DNA of 64,000 nucleotides from Dyadobacter chenhuakuii (GTDB lineage: Bacteria; Bacteroidota; Bacteroidia; Cytophagales; Spirosomataceae). The stretch lies in contig NZ_CP098805.1 in the NCBI RefSeq assembly GCF_023821985.2, forward strand, positions 4,832,501 to 4,896,500. The letters run 5' to 3'. The notes under the pieces were generated by a model. The model ran no database searches. It was not told the origin of the DNA and saw only the letters and a list, made by a program, of their open reading frames with translations. How positions within the stretch are numbered: the stretch's first letter is position 1; every line of letters starts with the position of its first letter. A program made the translations under genes and the position numbers. Below are positions 9,991-30,559 of the stretch, piece after piece.

Positions 9991-10162
9991 AATTCAAACT
10001 GATTTTGATACTTACTGTTAGGCTGGCGATGCATTAAAAATTATGCCAACATTGGCTCGGGCAAATGAGATAGATTTTCTTGTCTGCAACCTGGACGACA
10101 CCGATATTCGTTCCGTCCGCTCGCGATTCCTATCACCCTTGCCAGTGCGCCTTAAAACCGAC

Positions 10163-10188
10163 AAAGCCCGGTCGTTAGACCAGGCTTT
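10163..10188 (-). terminator. Terminator of tRNA-Pro remnant A
   Basis: On the minus strand AAAGCCTGGTC-TAAC-GACCGGGCTTT forms a strong hairpin just downstream of a tRNA-Pro 3' remnant, followed by TGTCGGTTTT. The same hairpin recurs at 10281-10306. Confidence 0.75.
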
Positions 10189-10189
10189 G

Positions 10190-10268
10190 TCGGGATGACA
10201 AGATTCGAACCGTGCCTCGCCGGCCGCGCGGCGGCCGCTTGCGACCCCTAGCACCCCAGGCTAGTGCG
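10190..10268 (-). pseudogene. Broken tRNA-Pro 3' half (remnant A) with a 28-bp GC-rich insertion
   Basis: Read on the minus strand this has the anticodon arm CTAGCCTGGGGTGCTAG, the variable loop, T-arm halves and acceptor 3' strand CATCCCG, but the acceptor 5' strand and D-arm are missing. The T-stem is split by 28 bp (10211-10238) of which 26 are G or C, containing the octamer GCGGCCGC. The loop base before the anticodon is C, not A as in the intact gene at 30486-30559, so it is an independent older copy. Confidence 0.75.
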
Positions 10269-10306: not shown

Positions 10307-10350
10307 TGTCGGGATGACAAGATTCGAACTTGCGACCCCTAGCACCCCAT
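10307..10350 (-). repeat. Attachment site copy at the left end (displaced tRNA-Pro 3' end)
   Basis: These 44 bp are identical to 30484-30527 inside the intact tRNA-Pro gene. They cover the acceptor 3' strand, T-arm, variable loop and anticodon-arm 3' side. Identity stops abruptly at 10351, where element sequence starts. This is the displaced tRNA end expected after site-specific integration. Confidence 0.92.
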
Positions 10351-10463: not shown

Positions 10464-10490
10464 AAATGTTCGACCTATGTTCGACCTAAA
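10464..10490. repeat. Left arm-type repeat (two 11-bp units)
   Basis: The 27-bp sequence contains TGTTCGACCTA twice in tandem and is identical, in the same orientation, to 30413-30439. It lies 114 bp inside the left attachment site and 12 bp before the integrase start codon. The position suggests integrase or excisionase arm binding, possibly also autoregulation of the integrase. Confidence 0.7.
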
Positions 10491-10501: not shown

Positions 10502-11740
10502 ATGGCTATTTCAACCAAGTTTGTCCTAAGAAAGAAACAAGAATCAGCGGAAGATCAGTTTGCGATAATGCTTCAAATAATTATCGACAGAAAGAACCTG
10601 CTGGTTAGTACAAGGAGATATTCGGGTGAAAAGGAATGGCAGCCTAAATCTCAATCTGTAAGCAAAATACATCCAAAACATAAGGAAATCAACCTTTTGC
10701 TTAGGACGATAGAGTCAGAAGTTGATTTTATGATAATTTCCTTTGGCAAACAAGGCAAACGTCCATCGTTCGAAGATGTCAAGGCTCTGGTAAAAAAGCT
10801 GACCGGAGGCCAAACGGAAGGCGAGAAGAAGAAGCTCTTTGTACTTTTCGAAGAACATATCGCCAAGCTTCGTAGTTTGAACCGGTTGGGAAGCGCAGAG
10901 TCCTATGTTTCAACTTTGAAAAGCCTAAAAAATTTTACAAACCAAAAGGACCCAGATATCTTGTCAATTGGGCTTTCATTTTTGAATAAGTATGAGAACT
11001 GGCTGATTGACAGGGGTTGCTCTATAGTTACGAGAAGTTTTTACTTGAGAACATTCCGTACACTTTGGAAAGCTGGGATCAAGGAAAAGTATTACCCTGA
11101 AACACATTATCCGTTTAAGGACTTTTCATTTTCTAAGTATAATAATCCTCGCACCAAGAAAAGGGCTATAACCAGGGATCAGATTGAACTGATTGCATCT
11201 GCGGTGATAGATCCTGAAAACGACTCCTTAATCAATTCGAGAAATTACTTCCTTTTCAGCTTTTATTGCAGGGGATTAAATTTTACTGACTTGGCTGAAC
11301 TCAAATGGACTAACATCGTAGACGAAGAGCTTCACTATGTAAGATCTAAAACCAAGGAGGAGTTCAGGTTTCGATTGCATCCAGCAGCAATTCAGATCTT
11401 AGAATACTACAGAGATTTGAAGGGGAATAGCGATGCTGGCTATTTATTCCCCATTCTTTATAAGCGGCATGCAACTATCCAGTCCATCCGAGATCGTAAG
11501 AAGAAAATACTCACACGAGTAAACAAGCAAATTAAAGAACTTGGAATATCCCTTGGTATCTTAAAACCAATAACCACCTACGTGGCCAGGCACTCATATG
11601 CAACAGCTCTCCGCAGGAATGGCATATCAAAGGAAACCATCGGTCGAAGCCTGGGGCATGATAGCCTTAAGACGACAGATATCTATTTAGAAGACATCGG
11701 TGATCCGTTGTTAGATGAATTGATCAACTCAACAATCTAG
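10502..11740 (+). CDS. Tyrosine site-specific recombinase (integrase of the tRNA-Pro element)
   Basis: 412 residues with the Bacteroidota layout: an N-terminal arm-DNA-binding domain, a SAM-like core-binding domain (about 120-215) and a C-terminal catalytic domain. Catalytic residues visible are Arg257 (CRGLNFTDLAEL), Arg363 in the VARHSYAT motif, His386 (LGHDSLKTT) and the nucleophile Tyr395. The first residue of the usual HxxR box is Tyr here, which is common among Bacteroidota integrases. Its place beside the attachment repeat makes it the enzyme for integration at tRNA-Pro. Start ATG at 10502. Confidence 0.95.
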   Translation: MAISTKFVLRKKQESAEDQFAIMLQIIIDRKNLLVSTRRYSGEKEWQPKSQSVSKIHPKHKEINLLLRTIESEVDFMIISFGKQGKRPSFEDVKALVKKLTGGQTEGEKKKLFVLFEEHIAKLRSLNRLGSAESYVSTLKSLKNFTNQKDPDILSIGLSFLNKYENWLIDRGCSIVTRSFYLRTFRTLWKAGIKEKYYPETHYPFKDFSFSKYNNPRTKKRAITRDQIELIASAVIDPENDSLINSRNYFLFSFYCRGLNFTDLAELKWTNIVDEELHYVRSKTKEEFRFRLHPAAIQILEYYRDLKGNSDAGYLFPILYKRHATIQSIRDRKKKILTRVNKQIKELGISLGILKPITTYVARHSYATALRRNGISKETIGRSLGHDSLKTTDIYLEDIGDPLLDELINSTI

Positions 11741-12884: not shown

Positions 12885-13184
12885 ATGAGCACAACAGTTT
12901 TAGTCTCATTAAATGATCAGCAATTCGCTGACCTGATTGAATCCTCACTGCGAAAGGTTTTAGAGACAAAACCTGCGACGGTTACAGACACCAGCGACAC
13001 GCTTCTTGATACAAAAGAGGCGGCAGTACTTACGAAGTACAAGGAGACTTCAATATATGGGCTGGTGAAAAGAAAGAAGATCCCTTTCTGCAAAATGGAA
13101 GGTAAACTCCTTTTCTCCCGTAAGGAGCTCCTGGAATGGATAGCGAACGGACAACAAAAAACCGTAGGTAGCCATGAAAGATGA
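12885..13184 (+). CDS. Excisionase-family helix-turn-helix protein
   Basis: 99 residues. The C-terminal half has the MerR-like winged helix of excisionases: LDTKEAAVLTKYKETSIYGLVKRKKIPF followed by KLLFSRKELLEWI. Such small proteins bend DNA for excision or control the replication and mobilization genes in Bacteroidota elements. It overlaps the next gene by 11 nt, so the two are co-translated. Upstream is a 72-nt gap after the unknown gene that may hold a promoter. Confidence 0.85.
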   Translation: MSTTVLVSLNDQQFADLIESSLRKVLETKPATVTDTSDTLLDTKEAAVLTKYKETSIYGLVKRKKIPFCKMEGKLLFSRKELLEWIANGQQKTVGSHER

Positions 13185-14265
13185 ACCGCTTTATCTCCGC
13201 ATCGGCACCAGCTACTTTAAACAGGTGAACCGTCCTTTATCTTCCGGAGATTCGATGACGACCTTAATTCCCTGGTCAGCCGAATGCATCCGGCTGGACC
13301 ATAGCCGTGATTATCTGAAAGACCGGGTTGAATGTTACGATGGCTTTTGCTTCGTTCCAAGCCATCTGGACTACCAGCAGAAAGTAGGCGGGTTTTACAA
13401 CCGCTACCAGCCGTTTCAGCATGTGGCCCGTCAGGGCGACGCTTCTACGGTCTTTCATTTTCTCAAACATATTTTCGGGGAGCAGATCGAAATGGGCTAT
13501 GACTACTTCAAGATCTTGCTTGAACGGCCTACCCAGATCCTGCCGATTCTATGTTTGGTCAGTGAAGAACGTGGAACAGGAAAAACGACCTTTCTTCATT
13601 TTGTCAAGTCGATTTTTGGAGAGAACATGACCATCAACAGCAATGAAGATTTTCGTTCAAACTTCAACATCGAATGGGCGCAAAAGCTGGTCATAGGAGT
13701 CGATGAAACGTTCCTCGACAGAAAGGAAGACTCAGAGCGCATTAAGAACCTGAGCACCGCCCGTTTTTACAAGGTTGAAGCAAAAGGAGTCGACCGGCAG
13801 GAAACAGAGTTTTTTGGCAAGTTTATCCTTTGCAGCAACAATGAAGATCATTTCATTATTGCCGAGCCTGGAGAGATTCGGTACTGGGTCAGGAAGGTGC
13901 CGCCACTAAAATCAGATAATCACAAATTACTGAATGAGCTTCGAAGCGAGATCCCATTCTTTATCCATTTCCTATCTAGCCGGGACTTTGCCCATCCAAA
14001 CAGAACAAGGATGTGGTTTACCCCAGAGCAGATCGCCACGCAAGCCCTAAAAAAGCTGCTTAACCAAAATAGGAACAAGCTGGAAGTGGAGATTGCCCAC
14101 ATTTTGCTAACCATATGCGATGAGAAGGATCTTGACGAACTGCGGTTTTGCACAGGAGATGTTCAAGACTGGCTCATAAGAAGCATGTGCGATACAAAGA
14201 CGTGGTGCAAATTAAACGGGTTCTGCAAAATGCCTGGAAACTTACCCCGGCGAAAAACTCACTAA
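13174..14265 (+). CDS. Primase-helicase family replication protein, frameshifted near its end
   Basis: 363 residues as read. A nucleotide-binding motif SEERGTGKTTF (Gly134-Lys137-Thr138) is followed by VIGVDETF as Walker B, and a later LCSNNEDHFI sensor-like segment. This is the pattern of superfamily-3-type primase-helicases on mobile elements (VirE/DUF5906-like). The first 120 residues lack a recognisable primase site, so it may be helicase only. The last 30 residues (CDTKTWCKLNGF...) do not look genuine. A sensible C-terminus continues in another frame to 14378, suggesting a one-base deletion around 14160-14200. Confidence 0.85.
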   Translation: MKDEPLYLRIGTSYFKQVNRPLSSGDSMTTLIPWSAECIRLDHSRDYLKDRVECYDGFCFVPSHLDYQQKVGGFYNRYQPFQHVARQGDASTVFHFLKHIFGEQIEMGYDYFKILLERPTQILPILCLVSEERGTGKTTFLHFVKSIFGENMTINSNEDFRSNFNIEWAQKLVIGVDETFLDRKEDSERIKNLSTARFYKVEAKGVDRQETEFFGKFILCSNNEDHFIIAEPGEIRYWVRKVPPLKSDNHKLLNELRSEIPFFIHFLSSRDFAHPNRTRMWFTPEQIATQALKKLLNQNRNKLEVEIAHILLTICDEKDLDELRFCTGDVQDWLIRSMCDTKTWCKLNGFCKMPGNLPRRKTH

Positions 14266-14596: not shown

Positions 14597-15526
14597 ATGA
14601 CTTGTGAACAAGCCAGGGAGAATTCCATTGTCGAACTCCTGCAAAACTGTAACATCCATCCCCACTACGTCCGCGGTCAGGACCATTGGTATCTCTCGCC
14701 TTTACGCGACGAGAAGACGCCGTCTTTCAAGGTCAATGCGAAGTTGAACCTATACTATGACCACGGCAGCGGCCAGGGAGGCGATATCATCGACTTGGGC
14801 CGTCAGCTTTTCCAATGCGATACAAAAGCATTGCTGCAAAAACTTGGGTCTGAACATTTGTTGTTTCACCCGCAACAGTCCGTTGAACGGAATGCGTATA
14901 TAGATAGGAACGTTACGCCTGAAACCAAACAATCGGCAATCCAGATAACAAGCACAAAGGATTTGGATAGTAACGTCGCTATCAGCCAATACCTACAAAA
15001 TCGCGGCATTGACCTCTCTATTGCCCGGGAATATTGCAAGGAAGTTTACTACCAGGTTGGAGATAAGAGCTACTATGCCGCAGGGTTTGAAAACCGCTCA
15101 GGAGGTTATGAGCTTAGAAGCTCACACTTCAAGGGCTCATCATCCCCAAAGGACATTACCCATATCAATAGCGGGCACAAGTCAGTGTGTGTATTGGAGG
15201 GCTTCATGGATTTCCTTTCCCTTTTAACACTGCGAAAACACATGCCGGTCCAAAGCGATTTTCTCGTGCTCAATTCCGTCAGTCTGGCAGACCGAAGCTT
15301 GGATATTCTCAAAGATTACCGGACCGCTTTCATTTATCCAGACCGGGACGAAGCAGGAAAAAAGCTGATGGAAAAATATCAGGATGCAGGGCTAAACTGC
15401 GTGGACTCCTCGGGTATTTATCATAACCACAAGGATCTAAATGAGCTTCTGATGGCAAGCAAATCGCCGGAAAAACAGATCAAAAAGCAGCAGATTTTTA
15501 AAAAGTCTGGCGGGCTGCATTTGTAA
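14597..15526 (+). CDS. Toprim-domain DNA primase-like protein (CHC2-type N-terminus)
   Basis: 309 residues. The N-terminus follows DnaG-type CHC2 proteins (HWYLSPLRDEKTPSFKVN...DHGSGQGGDIIDL), but the zinc-ligand cysteines and histidine are not in place, so the finger is degenerate. The C-terminal half is a Toprim domain with Glu in VCVLEGFMDFLSLL and Asp residues in YPDRDEAGKKL. It probably makes primers for element replication after transfer. It stands between the iteron-like cluster and the candidate transfer origin. Start ATG at 14597. Confidence 0.88.
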   Translation: MTCEQARENSIVELLQNCNIHPHYVRGQDHWYLSPLRDEKTPSFKVNAKLNLYYDHGSGQGGDIIDLGRQLFQCDTKALLQKLGSEHLLFHPQQSVERNAYIDRNVTPETKQSAIQITSTKDLDSNVAISQYLQNRGIDLSIAREYCKEVYYQVGDKSYYAAGFENRSGGYELRSSHFKGSSSPKDITHINSGHKSVCVLEGFMDFLSLLTLRKHMPVQSDFLVLNSVSLADRSLDILKDYRTAFIYPDRDEAGKKLMEKYQDAGLNCVDSSGIYHNHKDLNELLMASKSPEKQIKKQQIFKKSGGLHL

Positions 15527-15637: not shown

Positions 15638-16027
15638 ATGGAATGTGAGATGGAAAAGACAGAAATCAAAGACCCAAAGCCCTATAATCCCAAAGGCGGC
15701 AGGCCACCTAAAAAAGTAAAAAGGCAGAGCCAGCTGATGGTTAGGCTGACAGAAACCGAGCGTTTCTTGATTGAAGAGAAAGCGAGGGATGCAGGCATGA
15801 AACCAAGCGCCTGGCTGCGGCAATCGGCTAAGAAAGCGAAAGTTTTAGCCAGGTTAAAACCTGATGACCTTAAATATCTCAGGACACTTACAGGCACGGC
15901 CAACAACCTAAACCAGCTCACGCACCTTGCACATAAGGAAGGCCTGACATTCATCCGGCAATCCTGCAAGGAGCTGCTTTTACAAATCGATTTGATCCTG
16001 AAAAAGCTAAGCAGAGGTGATCGGTAA
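15638..16027 (+). CDS. mobC: MobC-like relaxosome accessory protein
   Basis: 129 residues from the ATG at 15638; an in-frame upstream start at 15548 would run through the candidate oriT and is less likely. The central segment QLMVRLTETERFLIEEKARDAGMKPSAWLRQSAKKA is a ribbon-helix-helix-like DNA-binding pattern. The following LRTLTGTANNLNQLTHLA is the hallmark of MobC-type mobilization proteins. It would bind oriT and help the relaxase. It overlaps the relaxase start by 11 nt, so the two are translationally coupled. Confidence 0.85.
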   Translation: MECEMEKTEIKDPKPYNPKGGRPPKKVKRQSQLMVRLTETERFLIEEKARDAGMKPSAWLRQSAKKAKVLARLKPDDLKYLRTLTGTANNLNQLTHLAHKEGLTFIRQSCKELLLQIDLILKKLSRGDR

Positions 16028-16952
16028 GGTAACAATTGGTAGCAGTTTTGGTGGCGTGATCAGGTATGCTATGGAAAAGCAGGATGCAATTTTGCTATTG
16101 GCGGAAGGTGTGAGAACAGGTGAAGTACAGGCTATGATCCAAGATTTTAACATGCAAAGGAACGTAAGCCCGGACTTAACAAAAGCTGTCGGGCATATCT
16201 CGCTGAGCTGGAGTAAGGAAGATGCCGCTAGACTATCGCCTGAGATTATGAGGCAGCGTGCATTGGAATACATGGAAAAGATGAAGATCACCGGAACGCA
16301 GTTTATTCTGGTTGAGCATCGGGAGAAAAATCAACCGCATCTGCATATTATCTACAACCGGGTGGATAACGAAGGCAAGACGATCACAGACCGGTTTCAA
16401 AAAGAAAGGAACCGCAAGATCTGCAAGAAGATCACGCTCAGATACGGATATCATTTGGGTAAGGGCAAACAGCAAGTTAACCGGCAGCAGTTGAAAGGGG
16501 CAGACAAAGTCAGATATGAATTATATGATTCAATCAAATTGGCAAGTGCTAACGCTGTCAGTTGGAATGAGTTGACCGCAACGCTGGAAAGACAAGGCAT
16601 CGTGACAACTTTCAAATACAAATCGGGCACAAGTGAGATCCAAGGTGTCAGCTTCGCCAAAGACGATCTGCAATTTAAAGGATCAAAGATCGATCGTAGT
16701 TTAAGCTTTGGCAAACTGGATGCGTTGATCCGGCAGAACCATAAATTGGCGATGGTGCAGCAGTTTCGAAAGCAGCCAGGATATGTGCCCAACCACCCAG
16801 AAGGAAGATTTCGGGCAGCAACCCTCTCACAGCAGATCCCGGACGATCGAATACTTGATGACTTGCTCCGACCAGTTCAGCAATATGACCAGCAGAGTTC
16901 GAATCCATCAAAAAAGAAGAAACGTAAAAAATACTTAGGACAAAGCTTATGA
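16017..16952 (+). CDS. Relaxase/mobilization nuclease (MobA/VirD2-like)
   Basis: 311 residues starting with GTG inside the mobC-like gene. It contains the three-histidine-type metal motif of relaxases, QPHLHIIYNRVDNEGKTI (His108, His110), preceded by GHISLSW and followed by a basic region (FQKERNRKICKKITLRYG). It would nick oriT and lead the strand during transfer. A catalytic tyrosine is probably near the N-terminus (Tyr17 in VIRYAM). No coupling protein is encoded in the element, so transfer would rely on a helper conjugation machine. Confidence 0.92.
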   Translation: MIGKVTIGSSFGGVIRYAMEKQDAILLLAEGVRTGEVQAMIQDFNMQRNVSPDLTKAVGHISLSWSKEDAARLSPEIMRQRALEYMEKMKITGTQFILVEHREKNQPHLHIIYNRVDNEGKTITDRFQKERNRKICKKITLRYGYHLGKGKQQVNRQQLKGADKVRYELYDSIKLASANAVSWNELTATLERQGIVTTFKYKSGTSEIQGVSFAKDDLQFKGSKIDRSLSFGKLDALIRQNHKLAMVQQFRKQPGYVPNHPEGRFRAATLSQQIPDDRILDDLLRPVQQYDQQSSNPSKKKKRKKYLGQSL

Positions 16953-18080: not shown

Positions 18081-19193
18081 ATTCACCCGCAAAAAAAATG
18101 AGTGTATCTTGAATAGCCTATGAGAAAGTAAACTGATCTCAGAGCAGAAAAAACGATGGCTCATTTTCCTTTCTTTTTTTGTGATGCACACATGTCCATT
18201 TTTGTTCTCCCAATTGATTTACTTCTCAGCGGGTTCAAAAGCTCAATGTTATGCTAAAACATATAGTTTGTAGCTGGTAGAGTAAATATCTATGACTGAA
18301 TAGCCGGCTTTTGGCAGTAACTGCAGATCTTCGGCCGTGATCTAAAGGCTTTGAGCACGAATTTGCCCACTGATGGGCACAGGCGTTAACTCGATTAAGT
18401 ATGTATGCAGCCATTATTGACTAAACCTCATACTTGACTGCTCACTCGATTCAATTTCGTCGTCAGACGACGTCGCTCCTATTCTAATTACTGAGGTCTT
18501 GCAGTTTACAATAGTTTTGGGTGGTCTGATCCTAGCTTTCTATACAGGTAGTTTTCTAAGTCAATACTATTGTATCGGCTGATATACTTAGTACCATTAT
18601 GCCCAAGTCAGAATGTTTCGGCCGCGTGGAATGCCAAAACGGATTTTCAAATCCATTCAAACATTTTACAAGTAATCCCCTGGCTCTTTCCAAAATTATC
18701 TAGAAATTCGCTTCCAAGTCTTGCACGTCAAACTTTGTGTTGTGGTAAACTCAAAATACTGCATTTCGTTGGTATGTACAACTTTATTCTTCCTTAAAGG
18801 CTTTGTAATTTAATCGCACACAGGCATAAGCATATGTTCCCATATGCTTCCTCTAAACAATACGACCTACGCAATGCGTAATTTGTATTGAAAGTCTGGC
18901 AATCAGAAACTTAACAGCAATTTTTGGACGCATTGGTCATCATGTAGCTTGCTTGACAACTTGACTTTTGATCTCTTAGCTTTTGTGTCAGACAGGCAAA
19001 GCCATAAAATTTATCCGTTCATAGAAGAAAACTGTTCCCAACATGGGTGTTGCAATATTTGGAGGACATACAAAGCATTGTACATTTGTTTTTTCAATAA
19101 AGGCACTGGTGTTGGTCGGTCTGAAGCTCAATGAGTGCCCAACATCGCAAAGCTCCTAAACATTAGCTACAATTTTTTAAATGCCCTTAACAT
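18081..19193. other. 1.1-kb region without recognisable genes
   Basis: Only short, compositionally unlikely reading frames are present on either strand, and no tRNA or insertion-sequence gene is seen. It separates the mobilization operon from the defence-like cargo and may hold the promoter of the Ntn-hydrolase gene. It looks like decayed sequence. Confidence 0.5.
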
Positions 19194-20081
19194 ATGACAC
19201 TTTGTTTAGCTTGGAAAAATAATGAAAATTTAAGCCTAATGTCGGACTCAAGGCTTACAGGACCTAATGGTATTGTTACAGACAACGCAAACAAAGTATT
19301 CACAATAATCGTAACGGTTTCAAAGAATAAAGATGTTGTGTTTGAATCTACCTACGGAATGTGTTTTGCAGGTAGCTATTTGAATGGAAGTAATCTAGCA
19401 AACACAATTTCTGAATTAACCTCTAACATTAAAATATATAGTGACGAAATAATCAACTTTGACAAAATATCTGAAATATCATTTATTTTATATGAACACA
19501 TTTCTAAGCACTTAGTTGGGATAAATAGAGAACGAGGAGTTTCAGAAGTTTTTTTCACAGGTGTTTGCCCAGAAACAGGTGAAATTAACTTGTCTAAATT
19601 TTATTCGCAAATAGGTCAAGAGGGAATTTTAGAGTTTAAAAGAGAAGATATTAAATTGGAAAATAACCAGTTAATATATCTTGGGGACGCTAGTGCAATT
19701 GAAATGGCAGAAAAACTTAAAATGAAAATAAAGTATCCGTATACTGAGTTTCATTTGCTTGATGAAATCATCAAAGATGAAAATATCTCGACGGTAGGTG
19801 GATGTATTCAATATGGCTGTATTGTTGCAGATAAATTTAGAACTTATGGTATAGTTGATCACGAACTATATATGCCGCAAGATGAAACCGAAACACACAA
19901 AGAATATTTCAAAGTTATAGATAAATTCAATTTTAGGTCTATACCATTCAACTGGGAAGATTCAAAACTGAGTAAATTGAAAATTCATCTAGGTAAAGTA
20001 TTCATGGCTCCATTTATTGATAGAAAAAAAAGTGTACAAGAAGAATCGGATAAGCAAAATAAACTTAAAGATGAAAAGTGA
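19194..20081 (+). CDS. Proteasome-like Ntn-hydrolase (HslV/beta-subunit fold), cargo protein
   Basis: 295 residues starting MTLCLAW. If Met1 is removed, Thr becomes residue 1. Asp18 (in MSDSRLT) then falls at 17 and Lys34 (in NANKVF) at 33, exactly the Thr1/Asp17/Lys33 catalytic set of proteasome beta subunits and HslV. The following GMCFAGS matches their FAGG/G-rich strand. It is longer than HslV (about 175) with an extra charged C-terminus and has no signal peptide. It lies 245 nt upstream of a STAND-like NTPase on the same strand and is AT-rich like it. It is probably an N-terminal-threonine protease or amidase; the target is unknown. Confidence 0.75.
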   Translation: MTLCLAWKNNENLSLMSDSRLTGPNGIVTDNANKVFTIIVTVSKNKDVVFESTYGMCFAGSYLNGSNLANTISELTSNIKIYSDEIINFDKISEISFILYEHISKHLVGINRERGVSEVFFTGVCPETGEINLSKFYSQIGQEGILEFKREDIKLENNQLIYLGDASAIEMAEKLKMKIKYPYTEFHLLDEIIKDENISTVGGCIQYGCIVADKFRTYGIVDHELYMPQDETETHKEYFKVIDKFNFRSIPFNWEDSKLSKLKIHLGKVFMAPFIDRKKSVQEESDKQNKLKDEK

Positions 20082-20326: not shown

Positions 20327-23300
20327 ATGTTAACAACTATCATAGAACGGTATCTGCTGAGCATAGATCAAGCGACATTTCAAAAGATGATGAATCATCT
20401 TTTATTCCTCGAGGGATATAAGTTCATCTCTTCTCCGGGATCAGTAGTAGGTAAGAATAAAACGAGTAAAGGAGCTCCTGACAGCGTCTTCGCTGAAAGT
20501 GAGGGCTTATTTGTTTTTTGTGAAATGACTACACAAGAGAAGCTCGCTATTGGCGAGACATTCCAGAAGAAATTACGAAACGACATTCTTCACTGTTTCA
20601 ATTTTGGCGAAACTAGCATTGCAAATGAGCACATTGCAAAAGTCATACTAGCATTCAATCAAAAGATTGAGGCGGATGAAATTCAGGAACTCAATAATCT
20701 AGTCAAGAAATATAATTCACTTTCAGAACTAGTCATATACTCGATTCAAGAGATTCCTTTCCGCTTACTGTATTATCCGGGTCTTGCAGACAAATACATT
20801 CCTGGTGTAAAAACGACCCAGGGGACATTTTATACGTTGCCTGATTTTCTAGCAATTTCTGAACGCGGCATTCAACCTGCCTTGACTAATCCATTTGTTG
20901 CAAGAGAGGCCGAGATTCAAGAGGCGCTTGCCATGCTTACATCTAGTGACTTACTCGTATTAAAAGGAGGGCAAGGCGTAGGCAAGTCGAAATTTGCCAT
21001 TCATTTGGCAGAACATCTGGAAAAAGAGCAGGAATACGAAATAAGGGTCATAGATAGTAGTCCAGTACCCATTTGGGACGATCTTCAAACCTTTCTTCTA
21101 CCTGAACACAAATATGTATTGATTTTTGACGATGCAAATAAGGCACTTCCCAATCTAGATTATCTTGTGCAGTTCGTTAAACGCAAGCAAATTGGGTCAA
21201 TAAAAATCCTAGTCACGGTTCGGGATTATGTTAGCTACCAGCTAGAAAAAAGCTTGATAAACCTTTCTCATCAAACCATTAGTTTGTTCCCTCAAAATGA
21301 ATCTGACTTAAGAAAAATAATAGACAAGCTTATACCAGACCGCATTTATATCAGTGAAGAGGTGATCGATCGTATCTTGTCGATTTCAAAGGGCAATACC
21401 AGAATTGCAATAATGGCAATTACGTCCATCCTGCAAAAAATGGACGTTGGAATTCTGAGTGACATTTTCTCACTTTACGATCAATATTTCAAAAATGTCA
21501 GACTAGATATATCAACATTTGAACAATCGACAAAGCTTCAAACTTTAGGCATTCTGTCATTCTTTGGAATACTCGATAAAAATGATGAGTCGACGAGGCA
21601 AATTTTGGAAACAAAGTTTAATCTAAGCTGGAAAGAGTTGTGGGAAAATCTACTAGACCTTGAAAGATCTGAAATGGTCGATATTTTTAATCGAGAGACT
21701 GCAAAAGTAAGTGATCAAGTTTTAGCTGTTTATGCAATGTATAAAACATTTGTCGATAGCCATACCGCTTCAATTAGGTACTCGACATGGACATGTGAAT
21801 TTTTGGAAAGGTTTTCATACAAGGTAGACAGAACGATCCACGACATTATTAACACATTTGGATATGAAGAACTTAAACCCTCTCTCGAAGGCGAAATTTT
21901 AAAAATGCAACAAGTTGTGGAGTTTCGGAATGGTGATCTACATAAATTCTTTGATATTTTTTGGTTTTATCGAGAGATCGACACACTGCATTTTGTGAAG
22001 CGCTGGATAGATAATTTGCCAGATGACACCATTTCATCTGAAGCAATAAAGTACGACTATGAGGCAAACGAATTTATGTCGGCACCAGCATACATTAGCC
22101 TTCTGATAAAGTTCTGGCGGACAGATACACAATATACGTCGCAAGCGATTGACTTAGGTATCAAGCTAGTACACAAACACCCTTCGAGAATACCGGAGAC
22201 GCTTAAATTTCTCGTAGAACATACCTCCTTCAAACGCTACGATTATAAAAGGGAGTATGTAAGACAGTTTTCGCTTTTCAAATGTTTGAGCAAACCTGTT
22301 TCTGGGCGAGGTCAAAAGGAGATAAGTGATGGTATATTCTTGTCCGCTGCACGGTCTTTTTTGGAAGGTGAATATCGAGAAAACGAAGGAGGACCAGGAG
22401 GGCATTTTGTTATCTACACTTTTAAGCCTGTTAAAACAGATAAGCTTATTGAGCTCCGTGTCCTGATCCTTGTACGCCTATTCTCATTATTTAATCATTA
22501 CTCTGCTAAGGTACTTAACATGCTAAATGAATATCTACGAACCCTAAAGCATTTTGATGAGAATATTTCAGATAAGGAAAAGTCATTAGTTGATGAATTT
22601 ATTGATACAAATTTTTCCATCGACGAATACTCTCACTGTGCATTAGCGATTACTTACAAAAACGTTCTAACGAGACATAGCAAACCTGTAGGTAACAGAT
22701 TCAGTAAATTTGAAGAATCTGAGATATTTATATTTGCAAACGAATTTAAATCACTAATAAGGGATTCGAATCTACCTGCTTTGAGACGATATGACATATT
22801 GAAGGAAACGATAAAGAAAAGAACAGAAGGCGCAGGCTTCGAATTAGTTGAAAGTATAATCCAAAATTTTCATAAGATATGTGAGTCATCAAACATACTC
22901 AGTGATAATAACCACTGGGTAAATTCAGGGATCTATTACCTATTTGACGTGCTAGCAGAAACACAGCCACCTTCTTATTATCGTTCATTACACTTGATGC
23001 TGACTAATTCATTCTCATTTGAAATTGAATATGGTAGATTGATATCATATCCTCTGATATTGAAATTACTACCTCATGATCAAATATTTAAATTGATAGA
23101 TAACCGAAAGTATATTCGCAGGGATCAAATGATACTTTCTTACTACAATTTCATTGATGAAAACAACATTAACGAATTGTTACTAATCAGCTATATAGAT
23201 TTTCTGTCTAGCACAACCGAGAAATTATATTTTTATAGTTTTGAAAATTTAGAACGTTTCGACAAACTTTATAAATCTACATCATTGCTTTCTGACAAAA

Positions 23301-24127
23301 ATTTGGCAACAAACCCCAATATTGTGACTTATGTTGTCGAGCATCTATTGATTAAATTAGAGAAAGAGAACTTAGTATTTGAAGGTCAGATCTGCGAATT
23401 CAGTACTAAATATTTTTCGGATAGGCCAGATCTTTTACAAGAAATATTTTACTATCAACAAGATCACTATCCACACTATGATCATAGTGGAAACGAGGTT
23501 AGAGCATTAATGTCAATTGATAACCGATTTATAATTAAGCTGTTAGATAGGCTATCTCGGAAGGAGTTACAGAATAGCTATTGGCTTAGTGACTTGGATC
23601 TAAGCTTCGTTTGGAGCGAGCCTGATTATATACAAATTGTAGATTCTGCAATAGAATTGATAATGAAAAAGTATCCGTTAAGCTTAAACTTTGAAGGAGA
23701 GGCAGGGATTTTTTTCAGAATAGACAACAATATCGAAGAGCTAACTAATCGGGTTGAAGGATTTATAAGCCTATTTATAAACAAAAATCATAAGTCACGA
23801 AAACATATCAGATTGATCTTTAATGTAATCGCGTACCAATTCAGAAACAAGTTGCCACATTATTTGAAAGAGTTTCTTACATTAAATAAGGAACCCAAAT
23901 TTTTAGAGGTGTCCTGGTTAGAAATTAACGGAGTGTTCTCCGGTAGCCGGGTACCGAGGATTGAGGCGCACATTATATTTCTTAAATCACTCATTGAGTT
24001 GGTTAAAGGACTCTCTGATCCACTTGACTATTTTGAATACATCCGAGAATGGGAGCGTGAGATTGAATATTCAAAGCGAGATAAGTTGCGGCATATGAGA
24101 AGTGATTTTGTTGAAAGAGGTGAGTGA
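20327..24127 (+). CDS. STAND-like NTPase with nuclease-like N-terminus (Avs-like candidate defence protein)
   Basis: 1266 residues. Residues 25-110 look like a PD-(D/E)XK-type fold (GAPDSVFAES...FVFCEMTTQEK; Asp52, Glu66), with Thr in place of the usual Lys. A P-loop GGQGVGKS lies at 214-221 and Walker B VLIFDDA (Asp268, Asp269) follows, with a sensor-like VTVRDY near residue 300. About 700 residues of alpha-helical repeats come after. This effector-NTPase-sensor layout is that of antiviral STAND proteins, in which the repeats bind a phage protein and switch on the effector. The gene is strongly AT-rich compared with the chromosome. Start ATG at 20327; no other start fits better. Confidence 0.8.
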   Translation: MLTTIIERYLLSIDQATFQKMMNHLLFLEGYKFISSPGSVVGKNKTSKGAPDSVFAESEGLFVFCEMTTQEKLAIGETFQKKLRNDILHCFNFGETSIANEHIAKVILAFNQKIEADEIQELNNLVKKYNSLSELVIYSIQEIPFRLLYYPGLADKYIPGVKTTQGTFYTLPDFLAISERGIQPALTNPFVAREAEIQEALAMLTSSDLLVLKGGQGVGKSKFAIHLAEHLEKEQEYEIRVIDSSPVPIWDDLQTFLLPEHKYVLIFDDANKALPNLDYLVQFVKRKQIGSIKILVTVRDYVSYQLEKSLINLSHQTISLFPQNESDLRKIIDKLIPDRIYISEEVIDRILSISKGNTRIAIMAITSILQKMDVGILSDIFSLYDQYFKNVRLDISTFEQSTKLQTLGILSFFGILDKNDESTRQILETKFNLSWKELWENLLDLERSEMVDIFNRETAKVSDQVLAVYAMYKTFVDSHTASIRYSTWTCEFLERFSYKVDRTIHDIINTFGYEELKPSLEGEILKMQQVVEFRNGDLHKFFDIFWFYREIDTLHFVKRWIDNLPDDTISSEAIKYDYEANEFMSAPAYISLLIKFWRTDTQYTSQAIDLGIKLVHKHPSRIPETLKFLVEHTSFKRYDYKREYVRQFSLFKCLSKPVSGRGQKEISDGIFLSAARSFLEGEYRENEGGPGGHFVIYTFKPVKTDKLIELRVLILVRLFSLFNHYSAKVLNMLNEYLRTLKHFDENISDKEKSLVDEFIDTNFSIDEYSHCALAITYKNVLTRHSKPVGNRFSKFEESEIFIFANEFKSLIRDSNLPALRRYDILKETIKKRTEGAGFELVESIIQNFHKICESSNILSDNNHWVNSGIYYLFDVLAETQPPSYYRSLHLMLTNSFSFEIEYGRLISYPLILKLLPHDQIFKLIDNRKYIRRDQMILSYYNFIDENNINELLLISYIDFLSSTTEKLYFYSFENLERFDKLYKSTSLLSDKNLATNPNIVTYVVEHLLIKLEKENLVFEGQICEFSTKYFSDRPDLLQEIFYYQQDHYPHYDHSGNEVRALMSIDNRFIIKLLDRLSRKELQNSYWLSDLDLSFVWSEPDYIQIVDSAIELIMKKYPLSLNFEGEAGIFFRIDNNIEELTNRVEGFISLFINKNHKSRKHIRLIFNVIAYQFRNKLPHYLKEFLTLNKEPKFLEVSWLEINGVFSGSRVPRIEAHIIFLKSLIELVKGLSDPLDYFEYIREWEREIEYSKRDKLRHMRSDFVERGE

Positions 24128-25413: not shown

Positions 25414-25839
25414 TTATTCTGCATTGTTAGAGATATCCTCTTTTTGGCGTAAATCTGCAAGAGCCATAAAGTTAAATGAAGGCAGAATAAGAGGCCTATA
25501 TCCAGAGTTGAGTGTGAGATTTGAAATAAACGCTCTGAGATATGGGAAGGCAATAGCAGGCGCGTTTATTGTAATAAAGGTAGACTCCTTGAATTCGTCA
25601 TCAATAATAGAATCAGTTTGAAAGTGCGCAGTCGCTTCTACCTTGATTTCAATATCCTTATCCGGGGCACCAAAAAACACGTTGAACTTAATTGCAAAAT
25701 CATGATGCGAGTCTGTTGGAAATGCTACTCCATATCGAAGATTTGCTTCCAGATCGTCAGTAACATTTTCTTCAACCGTTTTTGATTCCAGAGATAAATT
25801 AGTTATCTGAAATAGCTTCAATACTATCTTAGGAGCCAT
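25414..25839 (-). CDS. SecB-like chaperone of a toxin-antitoxin-chaperone (TAC) system
   Basis: 141 residues. The C-terminal region FPYLRAFISNLTLNSGYRPL followed by ILPSFNFMAL is the SecB signature (FPYaRexI...LT...g..PlxLppinF). The N-terminus MAPKIVLKLFQITNLSLES also aligns with SecB's first strand. It is the third gene of a compact operon behind a short antitoxin candidate and a toxin candidate, with only a 3-nt gap. In TAC systems such a chaperone guards a chaperone-dependent antitoxin. It is not likely to be the housekeeping SecB, given the AT-rich mobile-element context. Confidence 0.85.
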   Translation of the reverse strand: MAPKIVLKLFQITNLSLESKTVEENVTDDLEANLRYGVAFPTDSHHDFAIKFNVFFGAPDKDIEIKVEATAHFQTDSIIDDEFKESTFITINAPAIAFPYLRAFISNLTLNSGYRPLILPSFNFMALADLRQKEDISNNAE

Positions 25840-25842
25840 AAA

Positions 25843-26073
25843 TTAAGCAGCGAAAGAATAAATCATAGATACCTCAAATTCGCTACTCTTTGTTTTAAGT
25901 TCTGGCTTACTTCTAACTACTGTTTCACTTTTTACCCAAACATGGGCTCCCATAGACAACTTACGAAGTACCTCTCTCTGATAATCATACTCTACCCAAG
26001 CAGACAGACTATCAGTATCGAATTTAACCAATTCATTGGTAAATTTTTCGCTAAGTTCTTTATAATTAAGCAT
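25843..26073 (-). CDS. Candidate antitoxin of the TAC system (chaperone-dependent)
   Basis: 76 residues. Its start overlaps the toxin's end by 8 nt and its stop is 3 nt before the SecB-like gene, the order toxin-antitoxin-chaperone seen in CmdTAC. No sequence family is recognised. The C-terminal end (SSEFEVSMIYSFAA) is hydrophobic and could be the chaperone-addiction tail that SecB-like proteins bind. The rest (ELSEKFTNELVKFDTDSLSA) looks helical. Function is inferred from context only. Confidence 0.65.
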   Translation of the reverse strand: MLNYKELSEKFTNELVKFDTDSLSAWVEYDYQREVLRKLSMGAHVWVKSETVVRSKPELKTKSSEFEVSMIYSFAA

Positions 26074-26629
26074 CTGGCTGTTCTACGTTTTCTAAATGGA
26101 TCGCAAAATTACGAATTCTTTTTGTATTAAACATTACTATTTGAATCCTCTTTTTATAATACAGTTCAGGTATCAAAGAATACACCCTGTTCGGATTTCT
26201 ACCGGGGTTGGTTGGCTTGTCATCAAAAATTATACCCTCAACTCCTATCTGAGGCCAAATATTATCTGATAAAAAACGATTGACCTGCTCAAGGGATACG
26301 TTCATTCCACTCGTTTGGAAATGATTTATGGTCTCTTCTATTTTTTCTTTATAGAAAAAGTATCCTTCTTCGTCAAAGACGGAATTTACGCATGTAGATG
26401 TGTCTAAATGTGCAATGTATACGTCATATGAGCCTGTATTTCTGATTTTGAAGTCTAACCCCCAGTAATGAGCAAATTCTATTTCTGTCCAAAAATAAAA
26501 TCCTATTCCTAGCCATGCATTTTTAGCAATACATTTTACTGGCTTTTCCAAGGGTTGCGACATCGGTCGAAATTCCTGCGTATGGTAGCCAACTATATGA
26601 GGCACGCTATCAATTATTCTACGCTCCAC
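26066..26629 (-). CDS. ADP-ribosyltransferase-like toxin of the TAC system (CmdT-like)
   Basis: 187 residues. The N-terminal VGYHTQEF (His16), the GIGFYFWTEIEFAHYWG segment (Gly43-Phe-Tyr45, then a helix) and a later acidic VEGIIFDD (Glu131) follow the H-Y-E plan of diphtheria-toxin-type ADP-ribosyltransferases, such as DUF3990 proteins (G.GFY.T...A..W). It is first in an operon with an antitoxin-sized gene and a SecB-like chaperone. In the known CmdTAC system the toxin ADP-ribosylates mRNA after phage infection. Whether this one modifies RNA or protein cannot be told. Confidence 0.65.
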   Translation of the reverse strand: MERRIIDSVPHIVGYHTQEFRPMSQPLEKPVKCIAKNAWLGIGFYFWTEIEFAHYWGLDFKIRNTGSYDVYIAHLDTSTCVNSVFDEEGYFFYKEKIEETINHFQTSGMNVSLEQVNRFLSDNIWPQIGVEGIIFDDKPTNPGRNPNRVYSLIPELYYKKRIQIVMFNTKRIRNFAIHLENVEQPDA

Positions 26630-30412: not shown

Positions 30413-30439
30413 AAATGTTCGACCTATGTTCGACCTAAA
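30413..30439. repeat. Right arm-type repeat
   Basis: Identical to 10464-10490 over 27 bp and in the same orientation, with TGTTCGACCTA twice in tandem. It lies 45 bp inside the right attachment site. The matching pair at both ends supports recombinase binding. Confidence 0.7.
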
Positions 30440-30483: not shown

Positions 30484-30527
30484 TGTCGGGATGACAAGAT
30501 TCGAACTTGCGACCCCTAGCACCCCAT
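30484..30527 (-). repeat. Attachment site copy inside the intact tRNA-Pro
   Basis: 44 bp identical to 10307-10350. The repeat runs from just past the discriminator base through the T-arm to the anticodon region, so the element supplies the 3' half of the working tRNA gene. Confidence 0.92.
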
Positions 30528-30559
30528 GCTAGTGCGCTACCGGGCTGCGCTACATCCCG
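30486..30559 (-). tRNA. tRNA-Pro (anticodon GGG)
   Basis: 74 nt on the minus strand. Acceptor CGGGATG/CATCCCG, D-arm GCGC...GCGC, anticodon stem CTAGC/GCTAG with loop ATGGGGT (anticodon GGG), variable GGGTC, T-arm GCAAG-TTCGAAT-CTTGT, discriminator A. CCA is not encoded. It is the insertion target of the 20-kb element. It begins 3 nt after the stop codon of a GIY-YIG nuclease gene, so both may lie on one transcript. The loop base 32 is A, unlike the C of the displaced remnant at 10190-10268. Confidence 0.95.

Follow-up and report, generated by a model that had tools for sequence, protein, structure and literature searches.

We identified a gene in Dyadobacter chenhuakuii whose product is predicted, with high confidence from its modelled structure, to be a divergent member of the proteasome-like family. 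The gene lies in a stretch of 64,000 nucleotides that was analysed as a whole (the window). On balance, we favour the view that it encodes a free-standing accessory threonine hydrolase of a mobilizable element, probably acting as an accessory or regulatory protease where bacteria, phages and mobile elements are in conflict. A link to defence is plausible and is sharpest for relatives encoded within type I restriction (hsd) operons.

Sequence and active site of the Ntn protein

The gene is solitary in the window, with 1660 bp free upstream and 245 bp downstream.

19194..20081, plus strand: proteasome-like Ntn-hydrolase (predicted), 295 aa, ATG start; Thr2, Asp18 and Lys34; FAG motif at residues 58-60

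In proteasome beta subunits, removal of the methionine exposes Thr1, which is activated by Lys33 and supported by Asp17. Once Met1 is gone, Thr2, Asp18 and Lys34 of the Ntn protein become Thr1, Asp17 and Lys33 in ungapped offsets, and the offsets 1, 17 and 33 are identical in the host's own HslV (T1, D17, K33), whose identity and first mature residue were both checked. The strand motif reads MCFAGS in the Ntn protein and GFAGS in the host HslV. The original prediction, made from the DNA letters, had named the match of these three residues to proteasome beta subunits and HslV, a GMCFAGS strand resembling the HslV motif, a 295-residue product with the same reading frame, coordinates and strand, and a location outside hslUV. 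All of this was borne out; the only PF00227 match of the genome is HslV, encoded apart from the Ntn gene at C1:2618604. No HslU match was found among the window neighbours that were scanned.

Searches of Pfam, NCBIfam and PADLOC (E up to 1) matched the Ntn protein to no family, and PDB sequences (E up to 10) gave no match; the homology is therefore remote. A profile of 14 homologues had proteasome beta type-4 as its top PDB match, at a non-significant E of 0.1.

Predicted fold

The AlphaFold2 model of the Ntn protein, computed from a seven-sequence alignment (A3), reached a pLDDT of 87.5 and a pTM of 0.86 (72.5-79.2 for the other four models). Foldseek returned 684 PDB matches at E<=0.001, and among the best 50 of 1104 matches every chain belongs to a proteasome or a proteasome precursor (best E 3.6e-8; TMt 0.53-0.65), so that the structure prediction and fold search proposed earlier as a check did find the proteasome fold. 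The model of the restriction-operon homologue L028 is weaker (pLDDT 62.6, with residues 233-303 and 315-342 under 50). Its 50 listed PDB matches are all proteasome or Anbu, among them Anbu 5nyw, and 596 matches were obtained at E<=0.001. PMI-5 and PMI-6 have an insertion between strands S3 and S4; in the model of the window protein, the two strands that may correspond to these (35-44 and 47-60) are separated by two residues. The homologues L009 and L010 are longer by 9 residues between these strands in the alignment.

The mobile element in the window

The Ntn gene had been proposed to be cargo of a mobile element, and this is supported by an exact 44-bp direct repeat corresponding to the 3' end of tRNA-Pro, together with a recombinase and a relaxase:

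10307..10350, no strand: left copy of the 44-bp direct repeat (att-like, repeating the 3' end of tRNA-Pro)
10502..11740, plus strand: tyrosine recombinase (XerD-like match, 5.3e-18)
13174..14265, plus strand: weak match to a P4-type primase C-terminal model (E 0.0084, below cut-off)
14597..15526, plus strand: DnaG-like primase match (1.5e-14, below the model's cut-off)
16017..16952, plus strand: MobA/MobB-type relaxase (PF03432, 7.1e-32)
19028..19167, plus strand: leader segment, 81% identical to L007:3979-4121, just upstream of the DUF5677 gene of Dyadobacter flavalbus
20327..24127, plus strand: nSTAND3 NTPase, 1266 aa (nSTAND3, 1.5e-8), separate cargo
25414..25839, minus strand: SecB-like protein (PD-T4-9_C, 3.4e-33), separate cargo
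26066..26629, minus strand: PD-T4-9_A match (3.4e-11), separate cargo
30484..30527, no strand: right 44-bp direct repeat, inside tRNA-Pro
30485..30559, minus strand: tRNA-Pro (ggg), putative integration target

The anatomy of positions 10307-30527, which combines an integrase and a relaxase with direct repeats formed by the 3' end of a tRNA, is that of a tRNA-targeting mobilizable element of about 20.2 kb. In an empty-site comparison, the sequences of other genomes that match the left flank lacked a tRNA-Pro inside the stretches examined. The PD-T4-9 A and C (SecB-like) matches at 25414-26629 on the minus strand perhaps form a module of the toxin-antitoxin-chaperone type.

Two further observations were made at the element ends. 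At 10153-10268, to the left of the first repeat, the tRNA-Pro end recurs in partial tandem copies, which looks as though previous insertions had gone into this site too. An identical 27-bp sequence made of two TGTTCGACCTA units is found just within both ends (10464-10490 and 30413-30439); these TGTTCGACCTA sequences are perhaps binding sites of a recombinase or excisionase.

The leader segment abuts the Ntn gene directly in the window, where the two genes that intervene in L007 (DUF5677 and DUF6602) are absent. These may have been lost in the window or gained in Dyadobacter flavalbus.

Conservation and distribution of the family

In alignment A6, T2, D18, K34 and G164 are invariant (22/22 rows), the conservation of Thr2 and FAGS being partly selected in six rows (L007-L012) because these were found by two peptide patterns, TxCxAWK, which holds the Thr, and another with FAGS; Asp18 and Lys34 are in neither pattern. 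The catalytic positions whose conservation the original prediction had asked about are therefore retained in 22/22 homologues. W7 is present in 20/22 rows and S19, F58, G60, G203 and Q206 in 21/22 each; from its place in the motif, G60 may be equivalent to the oxyanion Gly47. Identity to the query is 17-41%, with one exception at 87%. Met1-Thr2 occurs in 21/22 rows; in the remaining one, L004, the Thr is preceded by an Ile encoded by ATT, 42 bp upstream of the annotated start. Loci L019, L083-L089, L090 and L091 are outside the 22-row alignment; L019 shows T2, D and K by eye. The family placement of L076 and L077 is unsure, given their very long branches and weak profile scores (1.6e-6 and 1.1e-4). 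In the tree, a copy from Runella (Bacteroidota) groups with one from Moraxellaceae (Pseudomonadota) with support of 100/100, which indicates transfer between phyla.

The Ntn gene is accessory. It was found in 2/37 genomes of the genus and in 2/59 relatives overall, the 87% identical copy being that of Dyadobacter flavalbus (G001; locus L007). It was likewise present in 2/291 genomes of the order and in 8/398 of the phylum of L012. Of 395 phylum genomes, 2 had it in a search with a single sequence and 3 in a profile search, from which two chance hits had been removed: G078 (L016), with three stops, and G137 (L015/L079), where the frame of 301 aa is unrelated. Loci recovered repeatedly or nearly identical to one another were counted once (L002/L007, L003/L010/L013/L053, L011/L054, L012/L055, L008/L056, L014/L078, L004/L020, L017/L021/L022/L026/L027, L023/L024 and L028/L092).

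Among 5,426 complete E. coli genomes, 42 had a DNA match, 6 of which cover at least 80% of the query. Four chromosomal contexts were examined; two are prophage ends and two represent one ICE site. An E. coli plasmid copy adjoins phage tail genes. In the explanation that we favour as rather probable, this divergent family travels on plasmids, prophages, ICEs and mobilizable elements and frequently ends up in defence islands.

On a Klebsiella plasmid (L087:5851-6829) a homologue is annotated as two frames beside an IS5-type transposase gene, and the L072 gene sits in a series of small ORFs, all on one strand, that by its appearance resembles an integron cassette array.

Genomic neighbourhoods of the homologues

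Two homologues with 71% identical Ntn proteins are encoded inside hsd operons. On an IMG/VR contig with a Mu-type portal gene (L028), the order is hsdM, PDDEXK_3, hsdS, a gap of 3 bp, the Ntn gene and, overlapping it by 4 bp, hsdR. In L078 (G140), hsdM is followed by an HEC-06/Orf5-type gene, a 539-aa gene, hsdS, a gene of 108 aa, the Ntn gene, a SatD-like gene (match below Pfam's cut-off), a gene of 235 aa and hsdR.

Partner genes vary between loci. In L007 the order is DUF5677, DUF6602, Ntn; the DUF6602 gene matches PD_DExK (7.9e-19) and NucC (4.1e-14) in PADLOC, and a Gabija pair (GajA 7.5e-291, GajB 2.7e-208) follows about 5 kb downstream. A type IIG restriction-modification gene of Chlorobiaceae (L010) is followed after 43 bp by a 407-aa gene and, after a further 66 bp, by the Ntn gene. 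The Ntn gene of a Vibrio plasmid (L004) is followed after 60 bp by a CBASS cyclase gene (3.1e-132), accompanied by a 2TM effector (4.3e-96) and, nearby, an RT_UG17 gene. Eleos LeoBC and LeoA genes lie 222 bp before the Ntn gene on a Klebsiella plasmid (L084), and a GajA match (4.4e-43) lies 1.7 kb upstream of it on an Agrobacterium plasmid (L085). In L074, AbiEii is followed by a 189-aa gene whose product has one hydrophobic segment and by the Ntn gene, with an oligonucleotide cyclase about 6.6 kb downstream. BilC (1.3e-56) and BilD (2.1e-131) genes of Flavitalea (L008:9659-12858) converge on the Ntn gene; the operon resembles the ubiquitin-like conjugation type. No defence system was seen directly beside the Ntn gene in L005, L006, L009, L011, L018, L019, L023, L071, L073, L075, L076, L077, L083, L086 and L089, where most neighbours were not scanned individually.

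A homologue at L090:8001-8840 lies within an apparent head-tail gene module on a prophage-like contig (gene names read from translations). Small genes with a single N-terminal hydrophobic segment occur just upstream of two distant homologues (L017:8917-9519 and L074:8372-8941), which is only suggestive of a putative membrane partner. A HEPN partner was also considered, since Rx4-6H occurs in the upstream genes of L010, L011 and L007, and was rejected because this pattern is unspecific, being present in 12/15 neighbour proteins scanned. The upstream genes of L010 and L011 match nothing in Pfam, and the best PADLOC E for that of L010 was 0.0083.

Defence genes near homologues and in control stretches

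To quantify the neighbourhoods, 116 ORFs of at least 150 aa within 7 kb of 11 genome-collection homologues, window included, were compared with 103 control ORFs. These came from arbitrary 14-kb stretches with hand-picked coordinates, 11 in all and one in each of the same genomes (L104 and L105 unused). L009, L071 and L075 (short contig or contig end) and L010 (no control stretch) are outside this count, and plasmid, E. coli and viral-contig loci were left out because plasmid and viral collections are biased. At E<=1e-20, 166 PADLOC models matched the neighbours and 27 the control, a difference that is overstated because PADLOC models are redundant. Matches were traced among the best 25 of 166 models for the neighbours and the best 25 of 27 for the control. 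In the control, a single UvrD-type helicase accounts for 24 models and a Fic protein for one; a DinG model and one unlisted model were untraced.

Counted by locus, at least 5/11 homologue loci (L007, L008, L012, L074, L078) compare with 2 to 4/11 control stretches (one-sided Fisher p 0.18 to 0.50). No match at E<=1e-20 among the models listed was traced to L011, L072, L073, L076, L077 or the window. Multi-gene systems (Gabija, Bil, type I restriction-modification, AbiE) were found at 4/11 loci, with none traced in the 11 control stretches (p 0.045), in a category chosen after the data had been seen. Defence enrichment around Ntn homologues is thus suggestive, not proven, and the operon placements outweigh it as evidence.

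Comparison with known proteasome-like proteins

The enzyme type is not without precedent, since proteasome-like homologues without known function were catalogued in 2021 by Fuchs, Alva and Lupas. That account (PMC8665760) describes 22 new proteasome-homologue families with few clues to their function and reports no gene context indicative of function; the words restriction, plasmid and defense are absent from its main text. The Ntn protein falls in this proteasome-like family. It shares with the homologues described there the proteasome beta fold, Thr1/Asp17/Lys33, the lack of a propeptide and a scattered prokaryotic distribution (PMC8665760), and it differs from that account in the mobile-element and restriction-operon contexts seen for the window family. 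Among the literature matches listed, judged from titles and abstract openings and including few subscription papers, none links a homologue of the proteasome to anti-phage defence or to an hsd operon.

The Ntn protein resembles HslV in its identical catalytic offsets and GFAGS-type strand, but has 295 instead of 179 aa and is not detected by PF00227. With Anbu it shares the MT-CL start, with Met-Thr and no propeptide, and the region of the Asp aligns. However, Anbu is recognized by PF00227: this family matched in 28/29 genomes, with two or three matches in all 18 other Dyadobacter genomes, and the second-type proteins viewed there (nine loci) are Anbu-like, L049 having been checked and found to match Anbu in the PDB. 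Membership of HslV or Anbu was rejected on the negative PF00227 result. With hhalign, matches to narrow alignments of HslV and Anbu were local and weak (probability 5-19%), and the comparison is powerless, since the positive control HslV versus Anbu failed as well (0.3%).

Proposed role and alternative explanations

The activity, substrate, oligomeric state and defence role that we infer are as follows. Methionine aminopeptidase would remove Met1 and free Thr1 without a propeptide. Judged from the residue match, Thr1 would then act as nucleophile, helped by Lys33 and Asp17. No dedicated unfoldase is seen beside the Ntn gene, and the enzyme would therefore probably cleave or process a specific protein, alone or as a small oligomer. 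For the copies in type I operons, a subunit of the restriction enzyme itself would be the most likely substrate. Part of the support for the proposed role as accessory or regulatory protease comes from defence genes less than 10 kb away from the homologue (Gabija in L007, Bil in L008 and AbiE in L074); against it stands L090, whose position in a phage structural module better fits a role in phage morphogenesis.

A broader proposal can be made only tentatively: the widespread clade, borne by mobile elements and lacking a propeptide, may consist of accessory proteases of immune systems. In type I operons these would remove or process HsdR or HsdS, as a self-encoded counterpart of alleviation by ClpXP, and elsewhere, namely in CBASS, Eleos, type IIG restriction-modification and the DUF5677-DUF6602 module, they would tune or trigger other defence proteins. 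If true, this would give some orphan proteasome homologues their first function.

ClpXP consists of a serine peptidase and an AAA+ unfoldase, is unrelated to the proteasome type and is encoded elsewhere in the genome. Two papers report proteolysis of the EcoKI restriction complex by ClpXP during restriction alleviation (PMC4231737, PMC11109961). The likeness is that of a protease tied to type I restriction and is an analogy only; in L028 and L078, in contrast, the threonine hydrolase is encoded within the hsd operon. This precedent and the spacing of 3-4 bp between hsdS, Ntn and hsdR in L028, with the same kind of operon in L078, argue for a self-encoded restriction regulator that removes restriction subunits, as ClpXP does with HsdR in E. 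coli, and so protects a naive host acquiring the mobile system. Solitary copies, the one in the window included, would then act on other chromosomal systems. We regard this more specific role as unlikely, as only two loci, related to each other, show the arrangement, the L078 operon holds several other genes, no unfoldase is seen and the window copy has no adjoining restriction-modification operon.

Still less probable is a maturation or assembly protease internal to a phage or element, acting on virion or conjugation proteins and becoming a passenger later. The L090 copy within head-tail genes (named from their translations) would fit such a function, as would the copy at the E. coli ICE site, directly behind a conjugative ATPase gene, the 17 viral matches in BFVD (E<=0.001), and the PPH and AAH proteasome homologues found in phages (PMC8665760). 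When distant relatives were used, viral scans turned up six loci distributed over five contigs. However, the viral scan with the clade of the window protein yielded nothing, the window protein (P0001), L017 and L028 had no match in 50,697 phage records, and the proteins scanned in the window element include mobilization genes and no structural ones.

It is improbable that the protein is a catalytically dead or neutral passenger, moved horizontally on occasion and without a conserved role. The rarity of the gene (2/37, 2/291, 2 or 3/395 and 8/398 genomes, as above) and the differing partner genes would be expected of a passenger, but the triad is invariant in all 22 divergent homologues and the operon placement is tightly spaced, both of which indicate selection on catalysis.

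The STAND NTPase gene

The original prediction had placed a STAND NTPase gene on the same strand, which is correct; it starts 245 bp downstream of the Ntn gene. It had further joined the two as a protease-plus-STAND defence system, and this part did not stand, the two genes occurring apart in the genus. The STAND protein was found in 4/41 genomes in a genus search. Both genes were sought in 37 genomes of the genus, and the window's genome is the one that has the two together; the Ntn gene occurs without the STAND gene in G001, and the STAND gene without Ntn in G016, G027 and G030. In G030, which has no Ntn gene, the STAND gene adjoins a tRNA-Pro matching that of the window. The gene for a 78%-identical copy of the STAND protein (L080:7641-11441), beside a matching tRNA-Pro in another Dyadobacter genome without the Ntn gene, represents cargo exchange at one hotspot.

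With tblastn (E<=0.001), the STAND protein matched, among 115 loci with flanks of up to 10 kb, some far shorter, only the window's genome and G016, G027 and G030, and no STAND family had two members in Pfam (E<=1e-5) among the 116 neighbour ORFs of 11 loci. The recurring association with a STAND gene on which the pairing had been made to depend was thus absent from the 115 loci and 37 genomes, given that the genes dissociate in the genus and that no relative of this STAND gene occurs at other homologue loci. A system in which the STAND NTPase would detect a phage protein and switch on the Ntn-hydrolase as its effector is therefore very improbable: the shared strand, the 245-bp gap and the common mobile element speak for it, but each gene is found alone, relatives of the STAND gene are missing at the other loci, and the gap itself speaks against tight translational coupling. 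This reading is largely refuted, and the STAND gene is separate cargo.

Implications

If the links to defence hold, above all that of a proteasome-like protease whose gene adjoins hsdR in a type I operon, they would offer a directly testable substrate (HsdR or HsdS) and phenotype (restriction alleviation or phage restriction), and would place proteasome-type proteolysis within prokaryotic immunity.
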